Part shown: one piece after another, positions 53,343-55,109 of the stretch
How positions within the stretch are numbered: position 1 is the stretch's first letter
Layout: the number at the start of each line of letters is the position of its first letter
IMG/VR virus record: IMGVR_UViG_3300027905_000003
Location: 1-58,945 of that record
Reading direction: 5' to 3' (one strand)
Source of the DNA: a virus
Length of the DNA stretch: 58,945 bases
Notes under the pieces: generated by a model
Seen by the model: only the letters and a program-made list of their open reading frames with translations
What the model was told of the DNA's origin: nothing
Database searches by the model: none
Made by a program: the position numbers and the translations under genes

Positions 53343-53851
53343 TGGCGTTCGTCCCCGAAGTCTTCCGCCCCGATGGCTACATCGCCAAAGAGTCGTTGCG
53401 GGATGGCGTCTACTACTTCGGCCGCTGCCGGAACTCACAGGTCGCTCGCTGGGATGCCACGCGACAAGTCTTTCGCTACTGGCGAGAGAAGTTTACCCAT
53501 CGCTACGTTGAAGCCTTACGGTGTCGGGAAGACGAAGGCCCGACGATCGATGTCTTCGACGCTCGATGCGCGCTCAGCGAGTTGGAGCGTGAAGATGTGC
53601 CCGACGAGGGACCGCCCATAGACCGCGCTCGACTCCTCCACCAATTCGGTAGCCGCGTGCTGCAACGGAGAGAAGTGCTCAATCTCTCGCAGCAGGAACT
53701 GGCGAAGCGAGCCGGCATGAGCAACGCGGCGTTGTGCAAGATCGAGCGCGGCTACGGATTGCCGTCGTTGGAAGTGGCGGTGCGCCTGGCGGAGGCGCTG
53801 TCGACTAGAGTGGATGCGTTGGTGGGGCCGACGACGGATCCGGTGCTCTGA
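53342..53851 (+). CDS. HTH regulator with N-terminal sensing domain
   Basis: 169 residues (GTG 53339 is an alternative start). The N-terminal 90 residues (VFRPDGYIAKESLRDGVYYF, RYWREKFTHRYVE) are unrecognised. The C-terminus is a full Xre HTH: NLSQQELAKRAGMSNAALCK, LEVAVRLAEALSTRVDALVG. Could sense a ligand to switch the Ro60 end of the circle. Confidence 0.6.
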   Translation: MAFVPEVFRPDGYIAKESLRDGVYYFGRCRNSQVARWDATRQVFRYWREKFTHRYVEALRCREDEGPTIDVFDARCALSELEREDVPDEGPPIDRARLLHQFGSRVLQRREVLNLSQQELAKRAGMSNAALCKIERGYGLPSLEVAVRLAEALSTRVDALVGPTTDPVL

Positions 53852-54507
53852 TGCGATTGCGTCCGAACGCGTGGCGCACACTTCTGGGCCGCATCGTCGC
53901 CGATCCCAGTGACCAAGCCAACCTCGACTGGGGCTCTCCCCGCAAAGGGCATCCCGAAGCGACGATCCGCGCCCACATCCACGAATTGGGGTCGAATCTG
54001 AACGCGCTCTCGCCCGAACTCTCAGACGATGAGTATTGGAAGCTCGCCATCCTGATCCACGTGCACGACATCTTCAAGCCTGACTCGCACGCCATGCGCA
54101 CCGGATCGTACGCGCCGCCGATTCTGGATCCGGATTCGCACGCCTCGATCGCCCGCGCCTTCTTGGCCGAGTTCACCGACGATGTTTCGATGCTGGCCAC
54201 GGTTCAGTACCACGACGAGCCCTTTGCGCTCTATCGCCAGTGGCAACGAAAAGGCCGATATAACCCAGTGCGATTCGAGTCCTTACTCACCGCTATTCCC
54301 GATTGGGACCTCTTCGTCGCCTTCCTCATCATCGACGGGACGACAGCGGGGAAGTCTCTGGCGGCGCAGGACGAGGGATTGTCATCGGTGACTGAGCCGC
54401 GCGAGTGGTTCCTGCACGCGATCCAAGGTCGGGTCACGACCCGGTGGACGGGGGAGACGGTGCGGATGGTGGAGGCGGCACGGGCCTCCTCGGGCCTCCT
54501 CGACTGA
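53851..54507 (+). CDS. HD-domain phosphohydrolase-like protein
   Basis: 218 residues. Metal ligands fit an HD domain: RAHIHELGSNL, then LIHVHDIFKP, DSHASIARAF and VQYHDEPFALY. A nucleotide, alarmone or tRNA-type substrate is typical. It is the last protein gene before the Y RNA array, which may be chance or a functional link. The ATG overlaps the previous stop. Confidence 0.6.
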   Translation: MRLRPNAWRTLLGRIVADPSDQANLDWGSPRKGHPEATIRAHIHELGSNLNALSPELSDDEYWKLAILIHVHDIFKPDSHAMRTGSYAPPILDPDSHASIARAFLAEFTDDVSMLATVQYHDEPFALYRQWQRKGRYNPVRFESLLTAIPDWDLFVAFLIIDGTTAGKSLAAQDEGLSSVTEPREWFLHAIQGRVTTRWTGETVRMVEAARASSGLLD

Positions 54508-54557
54508 CGCCTTGACTTTCCCTGTCGACCCCGCCAGCATCCCCCATTAGTGATGTG

Positions 54558-54622
54558 CCGGGTGGCGCACGATGCGGATACTTCTCTTGTAAAGAAAACG
54601 CCGTGTCGGCTTGTTCCCCAGG
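54558..54622 (+). ncRNA. Y RNA-like unit 1 (no tRNA module)
   Basis: About 65 nt. The inner stem CGATGCGG (54570) pairs all 8 bases with CCGTGTCG (54601). The outer helix pairs GGCGCA with TGTTCC through one mismatch, preceded by a bulged U, the same helix as in units 2-4. The internal loop is only 23 nt. This is the minimal Ro60-binding form. Confidence 0.65.
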
Positions 54623-54641
54623 TGCTCTGATAAACTGAACC

Positions 54642-54773
54642 GCCAGTGGCGTAGGTCGCAGATACTTCATTGGTTCGAATCCAATATTGACCGCCGCACC
54701 ACACGCCCTCTGTACGAGGGGAAGGTCGATTAGCTGAGCGGATACAGCAATCTGCTGCCGCTTGTTCCCTGGC
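54642..54773 (+). ncRNA. Y RNA-like unit 2 with permuted tRNA module
   Basis: About 132 nt. The ends pair GCCAG/CTGGC, then GGCGTA with TGTTCC (one mismatch), then GCAGAT (54658) with ATCTGC (54750). Inside are a T-arm ATTGG-TTCGAAT-CCAAT, acceptor 3' strand ATTGACC (54686), a 30-nt linker with its own CCCTC/GAGGG hairpin, acceptor 5' strand GGTCGAT (54724, 7 of 7 pairs) and D-arm GCTG/CAGC. So the tRNA order is rotated and the Y helix stands where the anticodon arm would be. Confidence 0.75.
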
Positions 54774-54810
54774 ATCTACTTTTTTGTTCGGTCTGCACGC
54801 ATTCAGGAAA

Positions 54811-54908
54811 ACCGGTGGCGTAGGATTCGGATACTTCTTTGGTTGAGACAGGCTCTAAACCTGTCGGCGGTTCAAGCCCGCTAAGCCCGAGTCCGCTCAT
54901 TCCCCGGT
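54811..54908 (+). ncRNA. Y RNA-like unit 3 with T-arm and extra hairpin
   Basis: About 98 nt. The ends pair ACCGG/CCGGT; the inner stem GGATTCGG (54823) pairs 8 of 8 with CCGAGTCC (54887). Inside is ACAGG-CTCTAAA-CCTGT, then a T-arm-like GGCGG-TTCAAGC-CCGCT. No acceptor or D-arm. The GCTCATTCC strand differs from the others, so its Ro60 helix may be weaker. Confidence 0.65.
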
Positions 54909-54920
54909 GCTCGCGTTCGA

Positions 54921-55067
54921 GAGGGGATCGATGGCGTAGGTGATGGTTACTTCGATTCTGGATCGAGAGGTCGTGGGTTCGAGTCCCACCTGGCTGGGTA
55001 ACACCAGTCGGTAGCTCAGTTGGTAGAGCGCTAAAATCTCCATTGCCGCTTGTACCTCGGTCTCTTC
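54921..55067 (+). ncRNA. Y RNA-like unit 4 with permuted tRNA module
   Basis: About 147 nt. An 11-bp end helix (GAGGGGATCGA with TCGGTCTCTTC) leads to the GGCGTA/TGTACC helix, then the inner stem GGTGATGG (54939) with CCATTGCC (55040), 8 of 8. Inside are a variable-arm-like hairpin, T-arm GTGGG-TTCGAGT-CCCAC, acceptor strand CTGGCTG (54990), a 7-nt linker, acceptor strand CAGTCGG (55005, all 7 pairs counting G-T) and D-arm GCTC/GAGC. It ends 42 bases before the Ro60 gene. Confidence 0.75.
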
Positions 55068-55109
55068 TCTTCGCGCACAGCACCGGGCCAATCTCGAAAG
55101 GAGATCAAC

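Follow-up and report, generated by a model that had tools for sequence, protein, structure and literature searches.

The window analysed here, an IMG/VR virus record 58,945 bases in length, carries phage-type genes for a primase/helicase, a tail fibre and an integrase-like protein. On its plus strand, positions 55110-56501 encode a Ro60-like protein of 463 amino acids with TROVE and vWA domains (Pfam TROVE at 9e-17, and vWA; phrog_850, RNA-binding protein, at 4.1e-65). Four Y RNA units on the same strand lie directly upstream of this gene, at about 54556-54625, 54641-54776, 54810-54911 and 54926-55062. They have in common a 5' strand, GGTGGCG...TACTTC, and a 3' strand, GCTTGTTCCC with close variants, and the 5' and 3' ends of every unit pair into a Y stem in minimum-energy folds. 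Both strands are conserved in relatives and form a putative Ro-binding stem, of which the Ro60-like protein is the presumed binder. Units 2 and 4 contain in addition a module resembling a transfer RNA (tRNA) whose parts stand in circularly permuted order, and these modules, which units 1 and 3 lack, are the subject of this work.

In both modules the T-arm and 3' acceptor strand come first, followed by a linker, the 5' acceptor strand and the D-arm, confirming the permutation claimed in the original prediction for this stretch. Its claim that the acceptor strands pair at seven of seven positions also holds in both units, with G-U pairs allowed. In unit 2 (54641-54776) the T-arm ATTGG-TTCGAAT-CCAAT (54669-54685) leads into the 3' acceptor strand ATTGACC (54686-54692), a 31-nucleotide linker with a hairpin CCCTC/GAGGG of its own (54693-54723), the 5' acceptor strand GGTCGAT (54724-54730) and the stretch from U8 to position 26 that includes the D-arm (54731-54749). 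In unit 4 (54926-55062) the corresponding elements are the T-arm (54973-54989), the 3' acceptor strand CTGGCTG (54990-54996), the 8-nucleotide linker GGTAACAC (54997-55004), whose outer G and C can pair to leave a 6-nucleotide loop, the 5' acceptor strand CAGTCGG (55005-55011) and the stretch from U8 to position 26 with the D-arm (55012-55030). The linkers had been put at 30 and 7 nucleotides, one too short each. The units themselves were delimited by motifs and folds. Within them, the detector of permuted modules described below placed the unit 2 T-arm, both 5' acceptor strands and the unit 4 3' acceptor strand together with folding, and the unit 4 T-arm and both D-arm stretches together with the covariance model R1; the unit 2 3' acceptor strand follows from its pairing with 54724-54730, and the linkers from folding and, for unit 2, the linker survey given below. 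The T-loop sequence UUCGA and a D-loop are present, and the Y helix, T-arm, acceptor and D-arm are all seen in unconstrained minimum-energy folds of the two units.

The units differ on the anticodon side. The original prediction had the Y helix take the place of the anticodon arm in both, which is true of unit 2, where GCAGAT/ATCTGC occupies the site of the anticodon stem and ACTTC serves as a 5-nucleotide variable loop, giving a form like that of the bacterial Y RNA YrlA. It is not true of unit 4, which keeps an anticodon-arm-like hairpin, TTCGA-TTCTGGA-TCGAG (54951-54967, from the hairpin-register analysis), between the Y helix and the variable loop AGGTC. The loop reads UUCUGGA, with CUG in the anticodon position. 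Unit 4 is a nearly whole tRNA, permuted near the junction of the D-arm and the anticodon arm.

We compiled 123 loci that have a related Ro gene, drawn from viral contigs, genomes and named phages (at least 7 of the contigs are present in duplicate), and scanned the 1.5 kb upstream of each Ro gene with a detector that looks for a T-arm and then a D-arm and is blind to acceptor pairing. Each distinct sequence was counted once. The scan returned 100 distinct modules in 82 of the 123 loci, 91 of them with the Y 5' motif. The original prediction had named homologues without these acceptor pairings as evidence that would count against it; the pairings are conserved, 85 of the 91 Y-linked modules pairing at 6 or 7 of the 7 positions and 52 at all 7, with full covariation. 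A strand-swap control of 5000 shuffles gave a mean of 4.5 and a maximum of 13 modules out of 91 at 6-7 pairs, and sliding the strands by 1-3 nucleotides left 0-2 such modules. None of the 9 modules without the Y motif, which are mostly junctions between tandem tRNAs, reaches 6 of 7. A control on whole loci gave 84 of 93 against 3 of 29 with at least 6 pairs, one of the three (locus L017, position 2539) being Y-linked by eye.

The detector required a standard T-loop, a 4-pair D-stem and GG in the D-loop, and this strictness leads to an undercount: in locus L034, a contig from an Opitutia metagenome-assembled genome, three consecutive permuted tRNA-mimic Y units stand upstream of Ro at 835-1325 by eye, against one detected. 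Matches to the covariance model are also found in loci for which the detector lists no module, for example L123, L062 and L088. By motif, 103 of the 123 loci hold Y RNA units, from 1 to 6 per viral Ro locus, in a loose scan that takes in some false units.

One Y-linked module (L107) spans two units and was left out of all counts based on 90 modules. For covariation we aligned 78 of these 90, after removing the two window units, 5 near-duplicates (three from L138 and one each from L139 and L140) and 5 modules with linkers longer than 10 nucleotides. Each of the 7 acceptor pairs has undergone changes in both strands; 93.5 % of the acceptor cells are paired, and over the whole structure 97.0 % of cells are, compared to 68.5 % in shuffles. 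The T and D stems covary as well, but both were selection criteria of the detector. The core contact R15-Y48, which the detector does not fully enforce, fits 85 of the 90 modules.

The model R1 was built from the same 78 modules and hence owes nothing to the window. Its best match in the window is unit 4, with 60.8 bits (E = 1e-14), followed by unit 2, with 41.3 bits (E = 1.5e-9); next comes a match of 21.9 bits. Because ordinary tandem tRNA genes elsewhere attain as much as 48.7 bits, a score like that of unit 2 does not by itself rule them out; a tRNA-tRNA junction is excluded for this unit by its fully paired acceptor, its two flanking Y strands and the lack of an upstream D-arm within 100 nucleotides. 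These figures bear on the idea that fragments of neighbouring tRNA genes, or remnants of attachment sites, happened into the present order by chance or decay. Tandem tRNA genes do place a T-arm before a D-arm and reach the R1 scores just given, but at tandem junctions the acceptors are unpaired (2 of 28 with at least 6 pairs once the L017 module is left out, against 84 of 93), neither window T-arm has a D-arm within 100 nucleotides upstream, and covariation of the pairs across 78 modules already contradicts such an origin, which we consider extremely improbable.

The Rfam model of YrlA (RF02553) aligns to unit 4 from T-arm to D-arm exactly, at 35.5 bits (E = 5.1e-6), and aligns end to end, under its gathering score, to units in L016 and L034. 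At the gathering score neither the window nor any of the 19 loci searched yielded a YrlA. At E = 0.01 the model also matches 9 of 14 control genomes, so that weak matches to it prove nothing on their own, and we relied on covariation instead. The Rfam YrlA consensus gave no match when compared with E. coli genomes.

According to the original prediction, RNase P or RNase Z might cut the linkers and so produce mature ends at a tRNA-like acceptor. Among the 90 modules the acceptor is closed by a GNRA tetraloop in 26, UNCG is seen in 12 (two of them inside 34-nucleotide linkers, in L017 and L138) and other 4-nucleotide loops occur in 14; the remaining linkers comprise 27 others of at most 8 nucleotides, 10 of 9-17 nucleotides and a single longer one, that of window unit 2. 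N-CCA directly after the 3' acceptor strand occurs in 6 of 91 modules, and neither window acceptor is followed by CCA. Judged from the sequences of the relatives, this pattern is that of a capped helix and not of a precursor with an excised spacer, and it leaves linker excision by RNase P and RNase Z unsupported.

If both enzymes excised the linker, the product would be an RNA in two pieces whose free acceptor ends resemble those of a tRNA, comparable to two-piece transfer-messenger RNA (tmRNA) or the permuted tRNA genes of algae. The 31 nucleotides of the unit 2 linker would suit such processing, as would the ACCA with which the 34-nucleotide linkers of L017 and L138 begin. Against it stand the tetraloops or loops of at most 8 nucleotides that close most acceptors among the relatives, the rarity of N-CCA and its lack in both window units, and the report, in the available text of PMC9433436, that bacterial RNase P is hindered by pairing that extends the acceptor stem; the acceptor of unit 4 can be extended by one pair. 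We hold excision to be improbable. Unit 2 and the L017 and L138 units leave room for cutting in special cases. The latter two, from Caulobacter phages (L017 at 2713 and L138 at 2215), have a linker with its own hairpin and an ACCA start immediately after the 3' strand, and are the best candidates for a cuttable linker.

The anticodon-arm-like hairpin of unit 4 is widespread among the relatives. At a fixed anticodon register, 47 of the 90 modules form 4 or 5 of the 5 stem pairs (swap control: mean 21.6, maximum 33), and 45 of these 47 have U33, as 45 of 47 have a purine at position 37. The hairpin statistics quoted are those of the fixed register and not of the version in which the length of the variable loop is free; many different anticodons occur among the modules in an analysis that left this length free. 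The YrlA-like form, in which the strand that follows the D-arm makes 4-5 pairs with the one that precedes the variable loop, is found in 40 of 90 modules (swap mean 8.3, maximum 18), and 15 of 90 satisfy both descriptions. We also considered an anticodon-like loop common to all Y units and dropped it, the loops of short units varying widely in length.

One explanation for the hairpin is that Ro60 holds these modules as decoys for host nucleases that cut anticodon loops during infection, the array varying the anticodon to cover several nucleases. The excess of hairpins over the swap control, the retention of U33 and of a purine at 37 and the diversity of anticodons would fit such a role. For the Salmonella system, the available text of PMC7790460 raises decay and nuclease inhibition as possibilities and proposes competitive inhibition of an anticodon nuclease by YrlA, but YrlA is not cut by the nuclease studied there. 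The hairpin is absent from unit 2 and from the remaining half of the modules, the loop may persist merely through descent from tRNA genes, and no nuclease is known for this host. We regard the nuclease decoy as a rather doubtful proposal.

Inserts of tRNA type in direct order are rare in Y units, with 3 that have an upstream Y motif against 90 permuted ones. The three (L003, 2681-2741; L008, 2858-2917; L141, from 1970) have a body of D, anticodon and T arms in direct order whose acceptor is not well paired, so that the Y stem joins this body at the acceptor side. Permuted Y units are annotated in phage records as tRNA-Thr (L015, 2985-3052), tRNA-Gln (L017, 2670-2737) and tRNA-Ser (L019, 2721-2795); tRNA callers appear to mistake the Y 5' strand, hairpin and T-arm for a tRNA.

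The closest known counterpart is YrlA. As described in the accessible portion of PMC8394870, YrlA consists of a stem of paired ends and a domain resembling the D, T and acceptor arms, is modified by DusA and TruB, and binds PNPase; its structure (PDB 6CU1) superposes on tRNA by circular permutation, according to the parts available of PMC11472068 and PMC13355120. A review cited in the text available from PMC7765460 states that phages carry YrlA, and TROVE proteins are noted in jumbo phages in that of PMC7824862. The window units share with YrlA the Y stem formed from paired ends, the adjoining Ro60-type gene, the tRNA-like domain permuted as T-arm, acceptor and D-arm, and a short loop closing the acceptor. 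They differ in falling under the Rfam cut-off or going unmatched, in an acceptor of 7 base pairs instead of the 6 of the Rfam consensus, in the 31-nucleotide linker of unit 2, in the anticodon-like hairpin of unit 4, which is absent from that consensus, and in standing as four differing units in a row.

Other permuted RNAs are less similar. The circularly permuted tRNA genes of algae and archaea also have the 3' half before the 5' half, joined via the acceptor ends; in those genes, the available text of PMC3978253 reports, the splicing machinery joins the RNA at a bulge-helix-bulge and it is matured to a working tRNA. In units of the window type, by contrast, the two ends pair into the presumed Ro-binding Y stem, and as a rule there is neither CCA nor an excisable linker. 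Two-piece tmRNA is likewise permuted, with a tRNA-like part and a segment between the acceptor strands, whereas units of the window type lack an mRNA-like part, mostly have a short loop as linker and are tied to a Ro gene. No tmRNA was recognised by ARAGORN, nor by Rfam, whether at the gathering score over the window or with a limit of E = 10 in 54480-55130. Separately, tmRNA genes of the permuted, two-piece type occur in phages or contigs that have Ro and Y arrays (L001, 1162-1453; L018, 6702-6959; L019, 6297-6642).

We conclude that units 2 and 4 are probably YrlA-type tRNA mimics, bound by Ro60 and with a closed acceptor, that are used as a tether or decoy. The adjoining Ro gene and the permuted order shared by 91 distinct modules upstream of related Ro genes support this assignment. 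The Ro60-like protein encoded directly downstream would bind the Y stem, as expected from its family. The loop end of the Y RNA is, as the covariation shows, a tRNA-shaped domain permuted at the anticodon side, and its acceptor would be a closed helix for which the linker, to judge from the relatives, is the cap and not a precursor to be cut. The elbow and acceptor may then engage tRNA-binding proteins such as PNPase, tRNA-modifying enzymes or tRNA-cutting nucleases, the RNA serving either to tether a protein of this kind to Ro60 or to occupy it as a decoy, and the array would offer several different mimics at once.

Several observations weigh against this conclusion. The tether-or-decoy step is one that we infer. 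No effector was identified in the window, and neither PNPase nor an RNA ligase is among the scanned proteins, which do not take in every open reading frame. Unit 4 misses the RF02553 gathering score of 69 bits, and unit 2 has no match to this model up to E = 10. The linker of unit 2 is unusually long, the longest of the 90 apart from the two of 34 nucleotides in L017 and L138. Fold energies are only moderately below those of shuffles (z = -1.17 for unit 2 and -1.43 for unit 4) and the centroid fold of unit 2 has no D-arm, so that folding energy alone is weak evidence.

The other two units of the array are built differently. Unit 1 (54556-54625, plus strand), recognised by the conserved strands GGTGGCG..TACTTC and GCTTGTTCCC and by its fold, is short and consists of the Y stem and a small hairpin with the loop CTTGTAA. 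Unit 3 (54810-54911, plus strand), supported by its fold and by a T-arm that matches R1, has a direct order, with an anticodon-arm-like hairpin at 54847-54865 (loop CTCTAAA, CUA in the anticodon position) followed by the T-arm at 54866-54882; no D-arm or acceptor was recognised in it. A unit like unit 3 is present in Brevundimonas phage Gurke (L019, TACTTC at 2612). No promoter or terminator was recognised around the array. Upstream of it, 53851-54507 encodes a protein of 218 amino acids without a Pfam or PHROG match, in which an HD-like HVHD stretch can be seen by eye.

The permuted order itself is the published design of YrlA and is not new, so the headline of the original prediction is not new either. 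What may be new is that a phage arrays tRNA mimics of varied kinds, an anticodon-like loop being present in many of them. Our literature search found no description, in the text available to it, of such arrays in phages or of the form with an anticodon hairpin; the primary YrlA papers lie outside that search, and we do not claim that either feature is unpublished. We tentatively hypothesize, while thinking it unlikely as yet, that phages keep arrays of Ro60-bound, permuted and nearly complete tRNA mimics as swappable decoys or bait for tRNA-attacking or tRNA-binding enzymes of the host during infection, many of the mimics having an intact anticodon-like loop with the Y stem set between the D-arm and the anticodon arm. 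The present analysis adds that Y RNAs stand in rows at viral Ro loci and that their tRNA-like inserts, which covariation shows to be maintained, are very diverse, one form having an anticodon-like loop. Cultured phages of Caulobacter, Brevundimonas and Xanthomonas that have such loci would allow the function of phage Ro60 and its Y RNAs to be tested.
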